A program made the translations under genes and the position numbers. Shown here piece after piece: positions 12,787 to 48,384 of a DNA stretch of 64,000 nucleotides; position 1 is the stretch's first letter; each line of letters opens with the position of its first letter. The stretch spans positions 21,534,501 through 21,598,500 of the forward strand of contig NC_088113.1 of the NCBI RefSeq assembly GCF_036370855.1. Direction: 5' to 3'. A model generated the notes under the pieces. That model did not search any database, was not told the origin of the DNA, and saw only the letters and a program-made list of their open reading frames with translations. This DNA is from Dromaius novaehollandiae (lineage: Eukaryota; Chordata; Aves; Casuariiformes; Dromaiidae).

Positions 12787-12822
12787 ACCCCCCGCGTCCC
12801 CCTTCCCGCGCGGGGCTGTCCC

Positions 12823-13756
12823 CTACTCCGGCCCCCCTAGGGCCGGCGCCCCGGGGGGGCACCCGTGCTGGGCGGGGGGCGACGCCACCATCTCCGCCAG
12901 GCTCCAGATCTTGGGCTTCTGCGGCCGCTTGTCCTGCCCGGGGCCGGGGCTGCTGCCGGGGCTGCGCTGGCTGCCGTCCCGCCCGGAGCCGGTGCCAGTG
13001 CCGGTGCCGGTGTCGGAGCCGGAGCCGGGGGGGCCGCCCGACGGGGGCCCCTCGCCCTCGCTGTCCTCGCCCTCCGAGGCGCCGCGCGGCCCCCAGCTCG
13101 CCCCGTTCTCCTTCTTGAGGCGCCGGCGGGCGTTGGCGAACCAGGTGGAGACCTGGGCGAGGCTCATGCGGCTGAGCACCGCCAGCATCGCCTTCTCGCC
13201 CTTGCTGGGGTAGGGGTTCCTCGGGTGCCGCCACAGCCAGGCCTTCAGCGCCCCGGTGCTCTCCCGCCCGGCCCCGGCCCCGGCCCTCGCCCGCCCCGGC
13301 TCGGGGGCCGCCAGCCGCCGGCAGCACGGGGGGCACGGCCCGGCACCGGGCAGCAGCACCGGCGGCAGGTCGCGGGCGGCGGAGACCTGCGGGGACGGAG
13401 AGGGCTGGGGCGTCGCGGGGACCGTCCGCCCGCCCGGCGGTGCCGCGGCCGGTGCAAAGGGGCGCCGGGCTCCTCCGACACCGGGGCCGGCGGCTCCCGG
13501 CCCCAATCCCACCCGCTGCCCGGCCCCAGCTCCGGAGGGACCCCCGGCCCCCGCCGTGCCCCGGCCCCTCGCCGCTTACCGAGTGTGCCAGGAGGCTCAG
13601 CGGCGGCGGCAGCAGGTTGTAGCCGGCCAGCACGGGGCAGGGGCAGGGGCAGGGGCAGGGCAGCAGGGCTTGGGGGGGCCCCTGCAGGGACCCCCACGGC
13701 CCCACGCAGCCCCCCGGCTCGCAGCCTGGGTGCCCCTCGCCCTGCGGCGCTGCCAT
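12823..13756 (-). CDS. Orphan Iroquois-class (IRX-like) TALE homeobox transcription factor, two exons, 246 aa
   Basis: Exon 1 is 13756-13580 (59 codons, phase 0, donor GTAAGC). Exon 2 is 13386-12823 after a C-rich CCGTCCCCGCAG acceptor. The protein carries a TALE homeodomain at about residues 92-154: [19 protein letters not shown], where the loop extension ends in PYP, then [17 protein letters not shown]. The motif [11 protein letters not shown] before it, the acidic SEGEDSEGE stretch after it and [14 protein letters not shown] near the C-terminus are hallmarks of the Iroquois family. They exclude MKX and other TALE classes. The protein is about half the usual 400-500 residues of IRX1-6, the family N-terminus is not recognisable, and the N-terminal arm of the homeodomain is altered to GAGAG. 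It should bind DNA in the nucleus as a developmental regulator. It does not lie in an IRX1/2/4 or IRX3/5/6 cluster. A SOWAH-family gene lies just upstream on the same strand. I do not assign a number; a fish irx7-type or other lost paralogue is possible. Confidence 0.9.
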
Positions 13757-13794
13757 GCTGCTGCGAGAGGAGCCGGGGAGCTGCTCCCGGGGCT

Positions 13795-13800
13795 TTTATA
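13795..13800 (-). promoter_or_regulatory. TATA box of the Iroquois-class gene
   Basis: On the minus strand TATAAAAGCC begins at 13800, about 40 bases before the ATG at 13756, which predicts a start near 13770 and a very short 5' UTR. Confidence 0.7.
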
Positions 13801-13840
13801 GCTGTCGGGGGGGGTCGGGGGGAGCGGGGGGGGTCCTGGG

Positions 13841-13850
13841 TGATTGACAG
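13841..13850 (+). promoter_or_regulatory. PBX/HOX-MEIS type site TGATTGACAG upstream of the Iroquois-class gene
   Basis: TGATTGACAG is the composite PBX-MEIS/PREP recognition decamer. It lies about 40 bp upstream of the TATA box, followed by further AT-rich homeodomain-like words (GATTACAGG, TATTAACACC, GTTAATGC) to about 13890, within otherwise GC-rich DNA. This is motif evidence only. Confidence 0.5.
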
Positions 13851-14199
13851 CTGATTACAGGTATTAACACCCTGGCAGAGCAGTTAATGCAGCCGCACTG
13901 ACTCCCTGGGGCAGGGACATTCCCCCCCCCACCTCAACCCCCCCCCCCCATCTGTTTTTGGGTAGGGACTAGCAGGGCACATCCTCTCCCCGTGCTCCCC
14001 CTGTGCCCCCCCCCCCAGACGCCTCCAGGACCCACCTCAGGGCCCCAGCGCTGGAGCCAGGCAGAGCTGCAGGGCACCGGGACCCCCAGGAACCCCCAGC
14101 CCCATGAGCGCCCACGGCCACGGGGACACAGGGACACATTGCACCGGGGATGCAGTGCGCACGGAGACGCGGTGCACGGGGGATGCAGTGCACAAGGGT

Positions 14200-14205
14200 T
14201 TTATT
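14200..14205 (-). terminator. AATAAA poly(A) signal of the SOWAH-like gene
   Basis: TTTATT on the plus strand lies about 98 bases past the SOWAH-like stop codon at 14303-14305. It is roughly 400 bp upstream of the Iroquois-class TATA box, so the two minus-strand genes are almost abutting. Confidence 0.75.
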
Positions 14206-14302
14206 GCGGTGCCACGAGCCGTCGGCGCCCGTCCCACGGCGCCCGGCTGCACACCCTGCCCGGGCGCCCGGTCCTCGCCCGGGGCCGCCGCGGAGCCCAG
14301 GG

Positions 14303-17300
14303 TCAGCGGGAGAACTTGCGCACGGCGCGGCAGGCCGCGGGCGGTGCCAGGTGCTGTGCCGGCGCCCGCTCCTCCTCGGGGCCGGCGAGGTCCTCGGCCG
14401 AGCCCCAGCGCTGCCGAGCCGGGCCGCCCGCCCTGGGCAGCAGCAGGCAGGCCAGACGCCGGCTCCTGCCGCGCGCCGCCGGCACCTCTGCAGCGGGGGC
14501 CCATCAGTGCCGGGCGCGGGGGCTGCTGGCTGCCCCGCTGCCCAAACGCTCCCTGCATCGCCCTGCCGCCACGCACCACCCCCAGCCCTCCACCCCGGCT
14601 CCCCACCGGGCAGACGGGCTCTTACGGGGGGTCTCGGCGGCCCCGTCCTGCGCGGTCGCGGCGCTCAGGTAGTGCCCGGGCAGGCGCCCGCTGTAGTCCC
14701 GCAGGTTCTGCTTGGCCCCTGCCAGGAGACAGAGAGCCCTGAGCCCCCGGGCGGGGATGGGGCTCGGCCCCACGGCGCAGCTCGGCCCCACGGCGCGGCA
14801 GGGCCCGGCAGGTCCTCACCGAAGCGCTCGACGAGCAGCTCCACGATCCGGTGGTGCCCGTGGAGCGCTGCGATGTGCAGCGGGGTGTAGCCCTGGGGGC
14901 ACCGGGCATCAGGAGGGGACAGGGCCGGGCCGTGGCCCCCAGCACCTTCCCCTGCCCGGGGGATGCGGATGGCCCCACATGCAAACGCTCCCCAGCCCCT
15001 CGTCCCAGGGATGCTCCATCCCCAAAACCATCATCCTGGAGAAAGCCCACCCCCAAAACCATCATCCCAGGGATGCCCCATCCTCCAAACCATAGTCCTG
15101 GAGACACCCCATTCCCAAAACCATCGTCCCAGGGATGCTCCATCCCCCAAATCATCATCCCAGAGATGCTCCACCCCCGAAACCACCATCCCAGGGACAC
15201 CCCATCCCTGAAACCCTCATCCCAACGGTGCCCCATCTCCAAAGCCATCATCCCAGGGACGCCCCATCCCCTTCCCAGGGCCCCCCCGTCCTGGGCCGGT
15301 GCTGCATCCACAGCGCGGCAGCGCGTCCGTCTGTCCGTCCGTTCGTACTCACGCCCTGCGTGGGAGGGAGCACAGCGTGTCAGAGCCCAGCTGGGCACCG
15401 TGAGCCCCCCCGGCAGCCGCGGCTGGGGATGCGCAGCGCCAAGCCCCCCCCCCGGTCTGCGCCCGGCCCCGCACGGGACCCGGTGTCCCGAGCTCGTACT
15501 CACGTGCTGGATCCGGGCGCAGGGCGAGGAGAAAACCAGTTAGCACCAGGGCCACTCGCCGCCCCCCGGCAGGGCCCCCCCGGGCCCCCGCACCCCACTC
15601 ACAGCTCTGGTGTTGATGTCGGCCCCGGCGGCCAGGAGCAGCGCGGCCATGTCCTCGCGGCCGTGCTTGGCGGCCCAGTGCAGCGCCGTCTGCGGGGCAG
15701 TGGGGGGGGGGGCACCGCCGTGGGGCAGCAGCGGGGGGGGCAGGGCAGTGGGGCAGTGCGATGGGGGGGCATGGGGACAGGAGGGGCCATGCAATGGGGG
15801 GGGGCATGGGGCAGTGCAATGGGGGGCATGGGGCAGTGAGGTGAGGGGGGCATGGGGCAGTGCGATGGGGGCATGGGGCAGTGAGGTGGGGGGGGCATGG
15901 GGCAGTGCGATGGGGGCATGGGGCAATGGGACTGGGGCAGTGCAGTGGGGGGCATGGGGCAGTGCGATGGGGGCATGGGGCAGTGGGACTGGGGCAGTGC
16001 AGTGGGGGGCATGGGGCAGTGCAATGGGGGGCCCAGGAGGGCACAGGGCAGTGCAATGGGGGGGGCACATGGCAGCAGGATGGGGGGCATGGGGCAGGTG
16101 AGTGTGGGGCACCCCGATCTCCTCCCAGCTCCCCCCAGCCCCACACAGCCCCAGGGTCTCCAGCCAGCCCCACCTGCCCTGGGCTGAAGGGCGATGGGGA
16201 TGTGCTGGGGGGGTCCAGGGCTGAGCACTGGGGGGGGGAGGGGACGGGGTGCTGGGCAGGGCTGGACTTACAAACTGCGCGGCGGCAGGACAGCAGCCGC
16301 AGGGGACGGGGCCAGCGGCGGGCGGAGGGACGTCGGCTAAAACCTTTGCAGGAAACAACCCCCTCCCTCCCCCCCCGGGGCCCTGCTCCATGGGCCCCCC
16401 CCGGCCCCTGGTGCCCCCCATGGCCCCCCAGCCCCCAGCCCCATCGCCTCCCCATGGCTCTGTCACCTCCTGCTACCTCCAGCCCCCTCAGGGCCCTATT
16501 CCCCCCCCATGACCCATTTGCCCCCCCCACGGTCCTGTCCCCTCCCCATAACCCCTCCCCCCCCCACATGGCCCTATTGACCCCGGCCCCCCACGGTCCT
16601 CCCCCCTGCCCAGAGCCCCCATCTCCCCCATAGCCCCTTCCTCCCAATAACCCCCATCCCTCCCCTTGGCCCCTTCCCGCCCCATGGCCCCATCCTGCCC
16701 CATAGCCCCTGTGCCCCCCATAGCCCCAGCCCTTCCATGGCCCCGCTCCCTGCCCCTCTGTTCCCCCCCCCAGGAGCCCCCACTCACCCCCTGAGCACCA
16801 TCGGCAGCACCAGCGCGGCCGGCGGGTCCCCGCGGGAGAGGAGGAGGTCAGAGCCGGGCGGGGGGCAGGATGGGGCGCGGGGGGGGGCAAGACGGGGCAG
16901 GATGGGACGTAGGTGGGGGCAGGACGGGGTGCAGGAGAGGAGAAGGATGGGACGTAGGTGGGGGCAGGACGGGGTCCGGGAGAGGGGCAGGGGGGGCCGT
17001 GGCCATGGCACGGGTGCAGGCCGAGGCGATGCTGTGCGCCGCGGCCATCCCCACCCCCGGGCAGCTCTGCTGCGGGGCCGGGCTCGGCGGGTCCCCAGTG
17101 CCCGCGCGGGGCCGCGGTGCTCCGGGCGCTGCACTCACCGAGGTGAAGTCCTGCAGCGGGCAGGACGTGCAGGTCAGCGCCGGGCGTGGAGCCGACGGCC
17201 CGTCTGGACCCCCCGGAGCGGCACCCCAGTCCCCGCGGCCGAGCGTCCCGGCCCCCGGCCCTCGCTCACCTTCTTGGTGGCCAGGGAGGGCTCCTGCTGC

Positions 17301-18548
17301 AGCAGCTGGCTCAGCACCGGCAGGTCCCCGCTGGCTGCTCCCTGCAGCCACTCCTTCTCCACGGGGTCCAGCTGTGGGACGAGGCCCCTGAGAGCCAGCA
17401 CCCACGAGAGCCAGCACCCACGAGAGCCAGCACCCCGTGAGACCCAGCACCCCGTGAGACCCAGCACCCCATGAGACCCAGCACCCGTGAGACCCAACAC
17501 CCCGTGAGACCCAGCACCCCGTGAGACCCAACATCCCATGAGACCCAGCATCCCGTGAGACCCAGCACCCCGTGAGACCCAGCACCCGTGAGACCCAACA
17601 TCCCATGAGACCCAGCACCCCGTGAGACCCAGCACCCCGTGAGACCCAGCATCCCATGAGACCCAGCACCCCGTGAGACCCAACATCCCATGAGACCCAG
17701 CATCCCATGAGACCCAGCACCCCGTGAGACCCAGCACCCCGTGAGACCCAGCACCCCATGAGACCCAGCATCCCATGAGACCCAACATCCCATGAGACCC
17801 AGCACCCCGTGAGACCCAGCACCCCGTGAGACCCAACATCCCATGAGACCCAGCACCCCGTGAGACCCAGCACCCCATGAGACCCAGCACCCCGTGAGAC
17901 CCAGCATCTGCCCCCGGCACCTGGCCCCAGTGAGACCTGGCCCAGTGAAGCCCAGCAGCAGCCCCTTACGGCACCCGGTCCCCAAGAGACCCAGCATCCC
18001 ACGAGACCTGGCATCCCGTGACACTCAGCATCCGCCCTGGCCCCCGGCCCCCGTGACACCTGGTCCCCCACGAGAGCCGACCCCGTGAGACGCGGCCCAA
18101 TGGAGCCCAGCAGTGGACCCTCGAACACCGGCCCCCCGTGACCCTGGTCCCGGCCCCCCCGAGCCCAGCCCCGCTCCGTCCCACCCCCCACGCGGCGCAG
18201 CCCCACGCACGGCCAGGGGGCTGGAGCCCACGCTGCTGCTCCCGTCCTCGGCGGCCTCCTTGGCTTGCTCGCCGTCCTCCTCGCCCGGCTCCGCTGCCCG
18301 CGGCTTCCCCCCCGGCGCCGGGGGCCCCTCGAGGCAGCCCCAGGCCGCGCGGCTCTGCCCACGCGCGGGGGGAAAAACGCGGCCGAGCACCGTGAGCGGG
18401 TCTGTCCCCGGCTCGGGGACAGGGGACCCCCCGGCCCCCCCCGCGCCCCCGCTCACCGCCGCGCCGAAGTCGGTCACCAGGATCTGCGGCGGGGCCAGCG
18501 CGGGGGGCTCGGCCCCCCCGGGGGGGCCCCGGCGAAGCGCCACGGTGC
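14303..18548 (-). CDS. SOWAH-family ankyrin-repeat gene with introns, 12 recognised exons including four 3-nt microexons (5' end not found)
   Basis: Exons on the minus strand: 18548-18457, 18354-18211, 17371-17270, 17150-17139, 16790-16788, 16274-16272, 15689-15603, 15506-15504, 15355-15353, 14892-14820, 14718-14626 and 14487-14303. Their sum is 800 nt, and the frame closes exactly on TGA with 265 residues visible. The core is the SOWAH ankyrin module: LDPVEKEWLQGAASGD, DFTSGF, TALHWAAKHGRED, NTRAHGGYTPLHIAALHGHH and LRDYSGR, followed by a C-terminal VRKFSR tail. Introns are phase 0 up to the GYTPLH exon and phase 1 after it. Vertebrate SOWAHA-D are intron-less, so this is not one of those retrogenes. 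The first visible exon has a good acceptor (CCTCTGCCCCAG) and needs one upstream base, so at least one 5' exon with the ATG is missing from my model. Introns are swollen by minisatellites. Molecular function of the family is poorly known. Confidence 0.87.
15010..15280 (+). repeat. About 30-bp minisatellite in a SOWAH-like intron
   Basis: Around nine degenerate units of the form CATCCCC(A)AAACCATCATCC plus CAGGGATGC lie between the GGC microexon and the GYTPLH exon. Confidence 0.85.
15353..15355 (-). CDS. SOWAH-like 3-nt microexon GGC (Gly)
   Basis: Minus strand GTGCTCCCTCCCACGCAG, then GGC, then GTGAGTACG. It gives the first glycine of HGGYTPLH, joined to the exon starting GGC-TAC at 14892. 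Acceptor tract and donor are strong. Confidence 0.75.
15504..15506 (-). CDS. SOWAH-like 3-nt microexon CAC (His)
   Basis: Minus strand CGCCCGGATCCAG, then CAC, then GTGAGTACG, preceded by a pyrimidine-rich TTTTCTCCTCGCCC. It gives the histidine in NTRAHGGY; SOWAHA has SHGGY at this place. The donor matches that of the next microexon over GTGAGTACGA. Confidence 0.72.
15740..16100 (+). repeat. G-rich minisatellite (GGGGCATGGGGCAGTG type)
   Basis: Tandem variants of GGGGCATGGGGCAGTGCAAT, with units of about 20-35 bp, fill the intron between the TTT microexon and the TALHW exon. A second, weaker array (GGGACGTAGGTGGGGGCAGG) lies near 16900-16980. The open frames across this array are artefacts of the repeat. 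Confidence 0.85.
16272..16274 (-). CDS. SOWAH-like 3-nt microexon TTT (Phe)
   Basis: Minus strand CTGTCCTGCCGCCGCGCAG, then TTT, then GTAAGTCC. The donor is a perfect GTAAGT. It gives the aromatic residue of the conserved DF-x-S-G-(F/Y)-TALHW motif. Confidence 0.75.
16788..16790 (-). CDS. SOWAH-like 3-nt microexon GGG (Gly)
   Basis: Minus strand GATGGTGCTCAG, then GGG, then GTGAGTGGG. It gives the invariant glycine between DFTS and F-TALHW. The acceptor is the weakest of the four, because its pyrimidine tract lies further upstream. Any position in this G run would give the same codon only if the reading is GGG. Confidence 0.62.
17139..17150 (-). CDS. SOWAH-like 12-nt microexon (Asp-Phe-Thr-Ser)
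   Basis: Minus strand GTCCTGCCCGCTGCAG, then GACTTCACCTCG, then GTGAGTGC. It encodes DFTS, the start of the family motif DF(I/V)(S/T)G(Y/F)TALHW, right after the exon ending ATKK. Confidence 0.85.
17391..17909 (+). repeat. 17-bp minisatellite, about 30 units
   Basis: The unit is GAGACCCAGCACCCCGT with CATCCCAT and CACCCGT variants. It sits in the intron just upstream of the LDPVEKEW exon. Since 17 is not a multiple of three, all three frames read through similarly, which produces long false open frames on the minus strand. Confidence 0.95.
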
Positions 18549-21164
18549 CTGGGGCAGAGGCGGGCGGTGAGGGCGGCTGCGCCGGGGGCCCCGGCGGCTC
18601 CCCCGGGCCGGTGCGGCGGGGATGCCGCGGCCGTATCCGCGCCGAGCAGGGAGCGGGAGCCGGAAACGCCCGCGGCCTCCGCCCGGCCCAGCCCGGCCCG
18701 GGGGTCCGGCGCCCGGGGGCTGCGAGGTCCCCGTGGGTCCCGGGGCACCGCCGTTGGCCCCTCTCCAGCAGCGCCCCGGCCCCGCCGCTGCACCGGGGCC
18801 CGGACGGTGGGGGCTGAGGGACCGGGCCGAGCCCCGGGGCTCAGGGCGGTGGTGGGACCGGCGGCGAGCTGCAGCCCCAGCCCCGGCCCCGTGGGCACCC
18901 GGGCTGCTGCGCCCGGCCCCGTGCGGGCACCACTCACTCTCGCCCGGGGCTCCCACGCGCGGCCTTCCCTGCTCCGCTCTCCGGGCAGCGCCGCAGTCCC
19001 GGGCCAGGAAGCGGTTACCGCCTCCCCGCCTTGGCCATTGTGCAAGAGGCCGCGGAGCCGCAGCCCTGGCGGAGGCCGCAGCTGGATTCCCGTGGCGGGG
19101 GGGGCGCGGGGACGGAGGGGGCCCGGGACGCCCGGTCCCGTCCACGCGGGGCCCAGCGCCGGCCCCGGCCCGCCGGAGCAGAGCGGAGCAGAGCGGAGCA
19201 GAGCCTTCCCCGCGTCCTTGGCGCAGCCGGGAGGGGGCCGCGGCTGGGCAGCTGTGCCCAGCTGTGCCCAGCTGTGCCCCGCGGAGCCGCCCCGCTCGTG
19301 CCCGCTGCGTCTCCCCGCTCAGCCCGGGATTATCCCGCAGGTTGTGTCCGTAATTAAATACCGACTAATAACGCTCTCAGGATATTAAATGTGTAACAAA
19401 CCCGCTTAGCTCTGGCCGGGGATGGGAAGGGGAAGGTCACTGGGGCTAACGGGCCCGGCAGCATCCCCGGGCTCACCGCAGGCCTCCGGCAGCGTCCGGC
19501 GATGGGGGCACGCGGGGAGCAGCGGCGGGGCCGTGCCCGGAGACCCTCGGAGGCTCCTGGGGCTCCTCGGGCCGGTGCCAGGCAGAGGGGTTCGGGAGGC
19601 CCCTGGCCCGGGGGTGGGTGCGCGCAGGGTGGCAGCCCCCCGCTCCCCTCTGCCCCCTCCCAGCCCCATCTCAAGCCCGTCCCCGCTGCTCCCGGACCCG
19701 TCCCCACCTCGGGCCGGTCCCCTGCTCTCCGGCAGCCCCAGGATGCCTGTGCCACCCGGCCGGGAGGGGACGGCCAAGGCGGCCACCCACGGCCCCACGC
19801 CGCACAGCTGTGCCCTAACCTTGTCCCCGCGGGACTCCACCGGCCCTAATCAGCGCCGTGTGCTGCGGCACCGCCGGATCCGCTTTATTAGATAATGGGG
19901 CCGTAATCTAGGAAAGCGCCTATGGATTGCGGCAGCGTGAGCCCTGCGCGGCACAGCTGGACGGGGCAGGGCCACAGCCGGGGCTAAGCACAGGCACAGC
20001 TGGGCACGGACCGAGCCGCGACTGGACACCCAGCCCGACACAGCTGGGCACAGACGGGACCACAGCCAGCCACAGCCAGGGCTGGACGCGGCCATGGGCA
20101 GGACAGGGCCAGGGCCACAGCTGGACGCAGCCACAGCTGGACACGGGCAGACACAGCCATGTCCACGGCAGGACACGGCCGTGGGCAGGACAGACAGGGC
20201 CACGGCTGGACACAACCCCAGCCCTGGGATGAGGCTCTGCACCCATGGGAGGTGTGGGGCTGGGCAGCGCCTCGGCACAGCGTTTGCACCCTGCAGGCCC
20301 CGAACCCCTCCGCGCTGGGCAGGGAGGACGGGGGTCCGGGGGTCCAGGGGTCCGGCCCACCCAGGCCCAGGCACACAGCCCTGCCGCGAGGAAAGGGGCT
20401 GCGGTGCAGCGTCGCCCCTGCCCCCAGCCCCAAGCAGGCCGAGGCAGGGGACAAGGCGGGGGCTCCCTGGGAACCTGGCTCTGCCCCGCAGCCAGGAACG
20501 GAGCAGGGCTGCTGCCGCAGGGCTCCTGCTGCTCCCAGGCTGCTCCCCGCACGAGCCCTGGTGCCGTACCCACCCCTGCAAGAGCTGGGCCAGGAGCTCG
20601 GTGCAGAGCGCAGTGATTGCACCAGGTCAGGTGGGCACCGAGCTCAGGCCTTGCAGAAGCTCTTGCTGAAGTTGGGTGGTTCCAGGCCTTTTCCCCCCTC
20701 TGCACATAATCAGTTTAATGCAAATGCATAGAACTAAAACTCTGAGATTAGCTGTTATAATCACATGTAAATACTTCCAGACAATCCGCTCAGGGAGGGG
20801 CAGCATGTGTAGTTTGGGACAGAGTTACACGGGATTTAGGCTGTTTACCACTCGATTAATTTCATGACTACAGCCCCAAAACCGCCCTTTTACCAGATGC
20901 ACAGCTCACTTCCCCAAGAGTCAAGGTCACCCCAGCAGGAAGAAGCTGATAGCACAGGGCTGCTGCATCTGCCAGCAAAGACCGACGCCATTCTCCCCTG
21001 CGGCCCCAGTTAACAGTGCCTGGGACCCTTCTGCCCCAGCACACGAGGGGATGTGCCACAGCATAGCAGCAACGGTGGTGTTTCCCTTCCCTGCTGGCCC
21101 GGGTACTCAAGAGGACGCCGGTGCAGGATCACAGATCCTCCAGGCAGCGGTAGCAGCCACCACA
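18549..21164. other. SOWAH-like 5' region and intergenic space to ZNF335
   Basis: 18549-19150 is GC-rich and probably holds the missing first exon or promoter of the SOWAH-like gene. 19180-19300 has short tandem words (GAGCGGAGCA; GCTGTGCCCA). AT-rich islands inside the GC-rich background at 19340-19405, 19870-19925 and 20700-20790 look like candidate conserved non-coding elements. 19930-20230 carries degenerate repeats of a GGGCACAGCTGGACACGG type. No coding gene is recognised. Confidence 0.5.
20719..20726 (+). promoter_or_regulatory. POU octamer ATGCAAAT in an AT-rich island
   Basis: A perfect octamer in TTTAATGCAAATGCATAG, in a 90-bp AT-rich island (20700-20790) that also holds GATTAG and ATAATCAC homeodomain-like words. 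Motif evidence only. Confidence 0.35.
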
Positions 21165-21184
21165 GACGCAGGTTTCAATCCCTT

Positions 21185-21190
21185 TTTATT
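21185..21190 (-). terminator. ZNF335: AATAAA poly(A) signal of ZNF335
   Basis: AATAAA on the minus strand lies about 700 bases beyond the ZNF335 stop codon at 21886-21888, which gives a 3' UTR of about 0.7 kb. Confidence 0.8.
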
Positions 21191-21885
21191 CATAAGCATA
21201 TTCAAAGCTTGAGAATGTCAGAATCGAACCCCTCCCATAACCACCTACAAACCAACTCCTTGCAGCAGAGTCCATCCCTCTTCAGAAGAAAAATAGAACA
21301 TCTTCCACCTATGCCTCTTCCTATTTTGGGTTCCTCCAGTCCAAAGCCCCACTGACGCCTGCCTGCAGGCCGGAAAAGCCAAGAAAAGGAAGGCTGCCTT
21401 CGCTCCAGGACCACGCGCCCCACAGCTGAGGAGCACGGAGCGCACGGCTGAGGCTGAACACGTTCCACGTATCACACCGTAGCACAGGGCTGCGCTCGGC
21501 CCCACGGCTCTCACCTCGGATCCTCGCGTGCCAGGCAGACGCTGGTTCGAGTTTGGCCCACACAGACATGATTTGGGAAAAGGGATTTCAGACCATCAAG
21601 TGCAACAGGCACAGAGACCGGCCACATCGGAGGGCTGCCACCGCTCCGCCTGTCTCGGCGCCTTGGCGGGCGAGCTGCCTGTGCCGGGGAGGAGGCGCAG
21701 GACCCCTCGCTGCGCAGCGCAGGCAGAGCAGCGGCACACCCCCGCCGGCGGGCACTCAGGCACGTCCCTTGTAGCCCCAAAGCAATAAGGCAACTGCTGG
21801 CTGCGGAGGCTGCTGCACGGTGCAGCTGCCTTGCTGCAGCACTGATGGCCCAGAACGTCACCGTCGGCCAGGCCTGTCCCCGCTG

Positions 21886-31291
<9,406 letters not shown>

Positions 31292-32110
31292 GCCCGACTC
31301 GCCCGCCGCGGCCTAGGCGCGACCTGCGGGCACGACGCCCCCGCCGTCAGGCCCGCTCCCGCGCCGCCCGCGGCCCGCCGCCGCCCCCCGGGGCCCCCCG
31401 CCACGACCCGGCGCGGCGCGGGGGGCCCTGCCGCGTCCCGGGCGCCCGCCGAGGGGCCCCGCGGGGCGCGGCCGCCGCGACATGCCGCCCCCGGGCCGCC
31501 GCCAGCCGCCCCCCCCCCGCCGCCGCGGGCGCTCCCGGCGCCCCCGTCCCGTCATCCCCCGCGGCGCCGCCCAGCCCCGGCCGCCATCTTGCCGCGGGGT
31601 CCCCCCCGCCGCCTCCGCGCGCGCGCACACGGCGGGGCCGCCCCGGAGCGCCGGCAAGGGCGGCCCCGCCGCGCCGCGCCGCGCCGCCGCGCCCGCCCGC
31701 CCGCTCGCCCCGCGCTCTCACCCGGCCCGCGCCGCGCCCGCCGCGCCGCCGCCACGGCCGGCATCACGGCGGCCGCCACGCACCCCCCCGGCCTCGCCGC
31801 GCAGGGACACGGCCCGCGCGGACCCCGCGCCGGGACTACTTACCGCCGCCCGCACCGCCCCGCTCGCGGCGCTCGCCGCCGCGGGCCGCGCTCCTCGCCG
31901 CCGCCGCCGCCGCCCCTGGGGCTCGAGCGGCGCCGCCCGCCGGCTGCGGGGGGGCGGGGAGGCCTCGCGCCCCCCGCGCGGGACTACTTTCTGCGCGGAG
32001 GGGTCATGGCGGCGCGCCGCGTCCGGGCGGGGCCGAGCGCCCGGGCCCTGCGCGTCGCGGGGTCGCGCCGGGGTTACGCCGGTCACGTGACGGCGGAAGC
32101 GGAAGCGGTC
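31292..32110 (-). promoter_or_regulatory. ZNF335: ZNF335 5' UTR, non-coding exon 1 and CpG-island promoter
   Basis: The ATG exon begins at 31323 after a GTGCCCGCAG acceptor. A matching donor, GCGGGCGGCG/GTAAGTAG, ends a non-coding exon at 31844, leaving a 520-bp intron. Upstream, 32083-32091 is TCACGTGAC (USF/MITF E-box), followed by two GGAAG ETS cores at 32095-32099 and 32101-32105. A YY1-like GCCGCCATCTTG lies at 31580-31591. The whole segment is extremely CpG-rich. There is no TATA box. Confidence 0.65.
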
Positions 32111-43984: not shown

Positions 43985-47885
<3,901 letters not shown>

Positions 47886-48384
47886 GGACCGCACTGGTGC
47901 CCGGCTCCGGGCCGGCGCGGCGCTCCCTGCCCGCCGCTCCCTTCCCCTCCCGGGCTCTCGGTTCTCACTCTTCGACCCCCCCATGGCCCGGGAGCGCGGG
48001 GGAGCCCATTTATCCCCCCAGCCGTGGGGCGGCCCCAGCCGTGCTCGGGGCTCGCGGTCTCCCGTCGGAAAGGGGCGAGGACTCCGGGGCCGCTCCTCGG
48101 GCGCTCCCCGGCTCCCGGGAGCCCTGGCTGGGGAGCAGGACTCTCGCCGCAGCCCGCACCCGGGCAGCCCCCTGCGAGCGATGGCTCTGCCGCGCAGAGG
48201 CGTTTGCCTGGTGCAAACAGCACAGAGAGCTGTCGTGACTTGGTCTTTCTCCGGAGCCAGTATCGCCGGGTCGGCCCGGGCTCGGCTGGGAGCTGGCGCC
48301 GGGAACGCGGCGCGGGCAGGGATGTGGGGCTCTGCGTCGCTCTCGCCTGCTGCCTGCTCTGCCAACCTCCATCCGCACGTTTTT

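Follow-up and report, generated by a model that had tools for sequence, protein, structure and literature searches.

Genomic context

The window analysed here is a stretch of 64,000 nucleotides from Dromaius novaehollandiae (assembly GCF_036370855.1, NC_088113.1), located on a 22-Mb contig and 0.55 Mb from the contig end. An intron-bearing Sowah gene on the minus strand adjoins an Iroquois-type homeobox gene (12800-13760, minus strand; Homeobox_KN), which lies directly downstream of it, head to tail. Over 60 residues, the homeobox gene is 65-70% identical to three further loci of the genome, which were taken as IRX genes, and its candidate ATG is found about 450 nt past the AATAAA of the Sowah gene. 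Intron-bearing, linked Sowah genes were reportedly found in fishes by Maeso et al. in 2012, the tetrapod copies being intronless and unlinked. A survey from 2009 describes linkage of the ankyrin gene to Irx for most bilaterians but not for vertebrates (PMC2674049). Elsewhere in the window, C2H2 zinc-finger exons are located on the minus strand at 22000-32000, and the plus strand carries, at 44000-48000, a gelatinase-like matrix metalloproteinase (MMP) gene with matches to fibronectin type II, matrixin and hemopexin. The zinc-finger exons possibly belong to ZNF335.

Structure of the Sowah gene

As modelled, the Sowah gene consists of 12 exons, all on the minus strand, that join to 800 nt. Its frame starts at an acceptor (exon A), with a putative 5' end, and is open until a stop ending at 14303, in agreement with the closing 800-nt frame and the phase 0 proposed in the initial annotation. 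All 11 introns are GT-AG, no internal stop occurs in the frame, and an AATAAA at 14205 is located downstream of the last coding exon. The upstream part is formed by exon A (18457-18548, TVALRRG..GAA; an open frame bounded by AG and GT, start putative), exon B (18211-18354, 144 nt, SRAAW..SSPLA) and exon C (17270-17371, 102 nt, LDPVEKEW..ATKK), which resembles the matching stretch of the paralogues. Exon B was placed by the joining of the model; its donor, GTGCGT (18205-18210), is weaker. The ankyrin core is encoded by a 12-nt exon for DFTS (17139-17150; AG-GACTTCACCTCG-GTGAGT), an 87-nt exon from TALHW to NTRA (15603-15689) and a 73-nt exon from GYTPLH to ERFG that ends in phase 1 (14820-14892). 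Both large ankyrin exons were matched by Pfam models in their raw frames, the 87-nt exon by Ank and also in a search of the animal's own genome. The exon beginning AKQNLRDYSG (14626-14718, 93 nt) and the last coding exon with the stop (14303-14487, 185 nt) again come from the joining.

A search for the winged helix of SOWAH proteins gave no Pfam match on the minus strand of 12801-22800, and no winged-helix exon was found in the window. A winged-helix model from three paralogues matched only at E 0.9 or worse, with none of the 8 best matches listed directly upstream of the gene. No start codon was identified for the gene.

Single-codon units in the ankyrin core

Without further exons the core lacks G-F between DFTS and TALHW (gap 1, 17138-15690, 1,449 nt) and H-G between NTRA and GYTPLH (gap 2, 15602-14893, 710 nt); together the gaps measure 2,159 nt. 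Each holds two AG-NNN-GTRAGT units on the minus strand, found where the initial annotation had placed them and in the needed order. In gap 1 these are G1 (16788-16790, GGG for G, donor GTGAGT, pyrimidine tract weak) and F (16272-16274, TTT for F, donor GTAAGT). Gap 2 holds H (15504-15506, CAC for H, donor GTGAGT, a branch-like CTAAC 37 nt upstream) and G2 (15353-15355, GGC for G, donor GTGAGT, CTGAC 28 nt upstream). By splice consensus each unit has the form of a 3-nt microexon, a codon between AG and a GT donor. Position, order, phase, splice consensus and the number of residues that the paralogues call for are read from the sequence; splicing itself we infer.

The whole window contains seven AG-NNN-GTRAGT units on its two strands, four of them inside the two gaps; the other three (4011, 61791 and 61799) are all on the plus strand. 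When the distance between AG and GTRAGT was varied from 0 to 30 nt, no arrangement other than the 3-nt one was found in the gaps. With the donor relaxed to GTRAG or GTRNG the gaps still held only the same four 3-nt units, and with any GT as donor two extra triplets appeared, both in gap 1. The 200 kb lying upstream of the window served as a local control; on their two strands (400 strand-kb) 14 units were counted, or 1 per 29 kb, close to the 1 per 33 kb that the initial annotation had given for chance. Length 3 was the commonest among lengths 0-12 in this control (14; range 4-14), so that the background for length 3 is no lower than for other lengths. From the control and the other three units of the window, 0.07 units are expected in the gaps against 4 observed (P for at least 4 = 9e-7, codon identity not counted). 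Dinucleotide shuffles of the gaps gave means of 0.003 and 0.004 units, and at least two units in either gap were seen in 0 of 20,000 shuffles. With GTRAG as donor, at least two units arose in 4 of 5,000 shuffles of gap 1 and 1 of 5,000 of gap 2, and the needed codons in order were never seen in these 5,000. Gap composition alone gives a chance of 0.116 for G, 0.011 for F and 0.188 for the last G. The four units are very probably genuine single-codon exons.

Other fillings of the gaps were enumerated from AG- and GT-bounded internal exons of 1-6 nt that keep a distance of 30 nt or more from either gap end. Gap 1 offers 14 such candidates and gap 2 offers 5. Only two six-base combinations of one or two exons encode G-F or G-Y in gap 1, and the second of them uses a very poor site (-21 bits); in gap 2 a single six-base combination encodes H, S, Y, G, D, N or K followed by G. 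One credible model per gap is predicted among exons of 1-6 nt with GT donors. Where GC donors were also permitted, gap 1 had four models, all with TTT at 16274-16272, and gap 2 had one. A six-base exon GGGAAG (GK) at 14951 has the right length for gap 2 but was rejected, no paralogue having GK at this place. Extension of the flanking exons to supply the missing residues, inspected by eye, is impossible. In the points tested, the initial reading of the gaps holds at the level of sequence, with the identity of H excepted; the other fillings are far worse or find no match in the paralogues.

Comparison with paralogues and ankyrin structures

The ankyrin core was searched against the Dromaius novaehollandiae genome (1.47 Gb in 271 contigs), which gave 49 matches, four of them spanning the whole core in single frames. 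The four frames are presumably SOWAHA-D. They lie on contigs C15 (535 aa), C1 (519 aa), C11 (471 aa, locus L006) and C4 (815 aa) and are 44-48% identical to the core of the gene described here. All four carry two residues at each gap position, read straight through: SGFT, TGFT, TGFT and SGFT at gap 1, and YGG, SGG, SGG and GCG at gap 2, with one extra residue before gap 2 in the frame on C11. G-F is present in all four and the last G in three, and to this extent the family consensus invoked by the initial annotation stands. The H does not belong to that consensus; its position is occupied by Y, S, S and G, so that H is permitted and not predicted. As read from the alignment, the family bears out G, F and the final G; for H it bears out the position and not the identity. 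SOWAHA-D share the ankyrin core with the present gene but encode it contiguously in one frame, whereas the gene described here has a 12-exon model, six loop residues fewer and no winged helix found. The six residues are those of an ankyrin loop that all four paralogues have and the TALHW..NTRA exon (15689-15603) is without. A search for relatives in viral and prokaryote contigs found none.

Omission of the four residues lowered the tblastn scores of all four paralogues by 12-16 bits (L002 from 115 to 99, L001 from 106 to 91.7, L006 from 102 to 90.1 and L003 from 97.4 to 85.1). Against the PDB, the core gave 469 matches without the four residues and 494 with them. Among the 53 chains common to the best 60 of the 469 and the best 60 of the 494, 51 scored higher with the residues added (median gain 19.6 bits); two designed ankyrin chains scored lower (6mol_A, 241 to 218.8; 6mok_A, 146.2 to 143.2). 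In most of the PDB alignments shown, a two-residue gap stands before GYTPLH without H-G, and the alignment is ungapped there with it. The Pfam Ank score rose from 70.1 to 75.0, Ank_2 was unaffected (66.0 and 65.9), and a weak match to ANK_LRRK2 disappeared once the residues were added. With H-G included, GYTPLH follows GFTALHW at a spacing of 33 residues, which is the usual period of ankyrin repeats. That ankyrin profiles match even without the four residues would be expected if the units were chance sequences or unused and the protein were made without G-F and H-G, but this is very improbable given the shuffle and density tests, the codon match, the paralogues and the 33-residue spacing.

Splice sites

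Donors of the form GTRAGT are found at 6 of 6 sites in the cluster and at 0 of 5 other donors, four of the six having been selected by the GTRAGT rule itself. On a splice-site weight matrix with assumed frequencies, G1 and H have acceptors that rank no higher than the top 17-18% of AGs, and G2 has a donor in the top 12% of GTs; exon C, an ordinary exon, has an acceptor just as weak (17%). No yUnAy branch-like site was found within 60 nt of the acceptors of G1, F or the ordinary TALHW exon. G1 lacks both a branch-like site and a good pyrimidine tract, and the acceptors of the cluster are uneven. H and G2 are each followed by an identical GTGAGTACGA, which might have pointed to duplication; the idea was dropped, as only four letters lie beyond the consensus, too few for the purpose.

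In an exploratory count, three TGC were seen in the 30 nt before each of the acceptors of DFTS (17150), G1 (16790) and F (16274). The same count is reached before 5.4% of the gene's 184 AGs and before none of 7 ordinary acceptors; H and G2 are each preceded by one TGC. A UGC motif is a mark of neural microexons, and the triplets before DFTS, G1 and F could represent it. Many known microexons are skipped or tissue-restricted. A variant of the preferred reading, less likely than not, is that the units are exons but only some of them are included constitutively; others, likeliest G1 or H, would be left out or confined to certain tissues, giving several in-frame protein forms. The weak acceptors of G1 and H, the preservation of frame in every inclusion pattern (16 of 16) and the TGC triplets would be consistent with this. 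If G1 or F were regularly skipped, on the other hand, the repeat should suffer damage, since GF is present in all four paralogues, and H and G2 have only the one TGC each.

Introns and tandem repeats

All four gap introns of more than 300 nt contain tandem arrays of their own, and so does the intron that precedes exon C. The arrays occupy 16855-16991 in the intron from DFTS to G1, 16609-16744 from G1 to F, 15694-16098 from F to TALHW and 15000-15271 from G2 to GYTPLH. In the intron before exon C, a 17-nt unit repeated 31 times (17385-17906) occupies most of the length. The microexons all lie outside the arrays. GC content is 0.74 in gap 1 and 0.69 in gap 2, and a GC-rich region with tandem arrays is a setting in which the assembly might be at fault. 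An artefact of this kind is nevertheless extremely improbable: assembly errors are unlikely to set the needed codons in order between consensus sites, the microexons are outside the arrays, and the segment 15290-15602 of gap 2 has one match in the genome, itself.

GC skew over the three introns of gap 1 is -0.29, +0.48 and -0.44, with a change of sign close to each unit. Change points placed blindly in gap 1 lie 12 and 84 nt upstream of its two units, and as composition boundaries the unit positions are in the top 1.7% of pairs. Composition boundaries in gap 2 gave no support for the units (rank 52%).

Arrays that are local and confined to single introns, stopping at the exons, are shared with the sequence stuttering reported for avian dot chromosomes (PMC12954441). 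That exon edges recur as copies in adjacent introns is reported in that source for a subset of genes only (PMC12954441). At the Sowah locus no exon-edge copy of at least 30 bits was found in the introns, and visible exon stuttering is for this reason not supported as the source of the microexons; the 22-Mb contig is also, by size, not a dot chromosome. The word microexon is absent from that paper, and its intron-length analysis ignored exons shorter than 10 bp (PMC12954441).

The same arrays, together with the winged-helix exon that was not found and the start codon that was not identified, would suit a decaying or silent gene copy whose exons have been fragmented by expanding intron repeats. 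Such a copy is very improbable, for the 800-nt frame is without an internal stop, all junctions are GT-AG and an AATAAA follows, and splice-ready codons in order are unexpected from random breakage. On the reading preferred here, that the units are functional exons, a more general proposal can be made tentatively, and we regard it as rather doubtful: that in GC-rich, repeat-expanding regions of bird genomes conserved exons may be reduced to single codons, each retained by a codon-depositing ratchet site, that this gene has five constitutive microexons (12, 3, 3, 3 and 3 nt), and that the same is hidden in other avian genes that seem to lack residues. In the neighbouring MMP-like gene, positions 10-59, 60-100 and 105-159 of the matrixin profile were matched and 101-104 were not; judged from this coverage, residue loss comparable to that of the Sowah gene is not seen there.

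Predicted splicing

We put at roughly 85% the probability that an intron-bearing Sowah gene lies here beside an Iroquois-type gene and that each of its two ankyrin junctions is completed by two real one-codon exons. As AG and GT are only three bases apart, both splice sites of a unit could hardly be occupied together; U2AF and U1 would hardly both fit on the exon, and exon definition should therefore fail. The difficulty, to which the initial annotation had pointed, is real, and stepwise removal would offer a way round it. The introns between exon C and the GYTPLH exon are short (96-582 nt), and those flanking the units would be subject to intron definition and excised successively. Splicing to the AG of a unit would add one codon to the growing exon and expose the adjoining GTRAGT as the next donor. 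The unit would work like a ratchet point of recursive splicing, except that one codon would stay behind. A missed unit would cost one residue and always keep the frame; that skipping never shifts the frame may be a reason why the structure persists. The strong GTRAGT donors of the cluster would fit stepwise removal, and by analogy a process resembling ratchet points that leave a codon behind is the most likely.

Recursive sites are described as a juxtaposed acceptor and donor used in succession (PMC8605326). The units have three bases between AG and GT where a ratchet point has none, and no AG-GTRAGT without intervening bases was found in the gaps; the likeness is one of working only and not of class membership.

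Comparison with known small exons

Single 3-nt exons are reported in NCAM of the mouse and in troponin T and homothorax of Drosophila (PMC8042270, PMC7392893). They resemble the units of this gene in being one-codon exons between introns; they differ in that one alternatively spliced 3-nt exon per gene is described, whereas four are predicted here, in a folded repeat core. RPS24 has consecutive microexons of 3, 18 and 22 nt (PMC12686416) and shares with the Sowah gene a series of microexons, a 3-nt one included, in a vertebrate gene, but the account gives it only one 3-nt exon, near the C-terminus and alternatively spliced. For APC11 of Arabidopsis, a single-nucleotide exon is reported, with a proposed model of intron definition and recursive splicing (PMC4674806). 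Its splice sites almost touch, as do those of the units, but it is a plant gene with one exon of one nucleotide. Before 2015, according to the same source, the smallest constitutive exon known was 6 nt and the smallest alternative exon 3 nt (PMC4674806). The micro-exon genes of Schistosoma, with exons of 3-81 bp by the abstract and a minimum of 6 bp by the text of the source (PMC10526429), share many tiny, mostly in-frame exons per gene; as described there, they encode secreted parasite proteins from mostly 15-bp exons, whereas here a conserved vertebrate ankyrin core is concerned. Exons of 3 nt are thus already known. No gene with four one-codon exons was found in the open-licence literature, where not every gene treated is searchable, and four in one vertebrate gene are without a report found there.

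Implications

If the reading is true, the smallest coding exons would be unusually dense in this one vertebrate gene. It would provide a natural test case for the spliceosome where splice sites are separated by only three bases, and for intron definition with stepwise removal in a vertebrate. Annotation pipelines and read aligners could, in the same case, drop core residues of avian genes. Independently of this, an intron-bearing Sowah gene adjoins an Iroquois gene in a bird, against the absence of this linkage in vertebrates reported in the earlier survey (PMC2674049).
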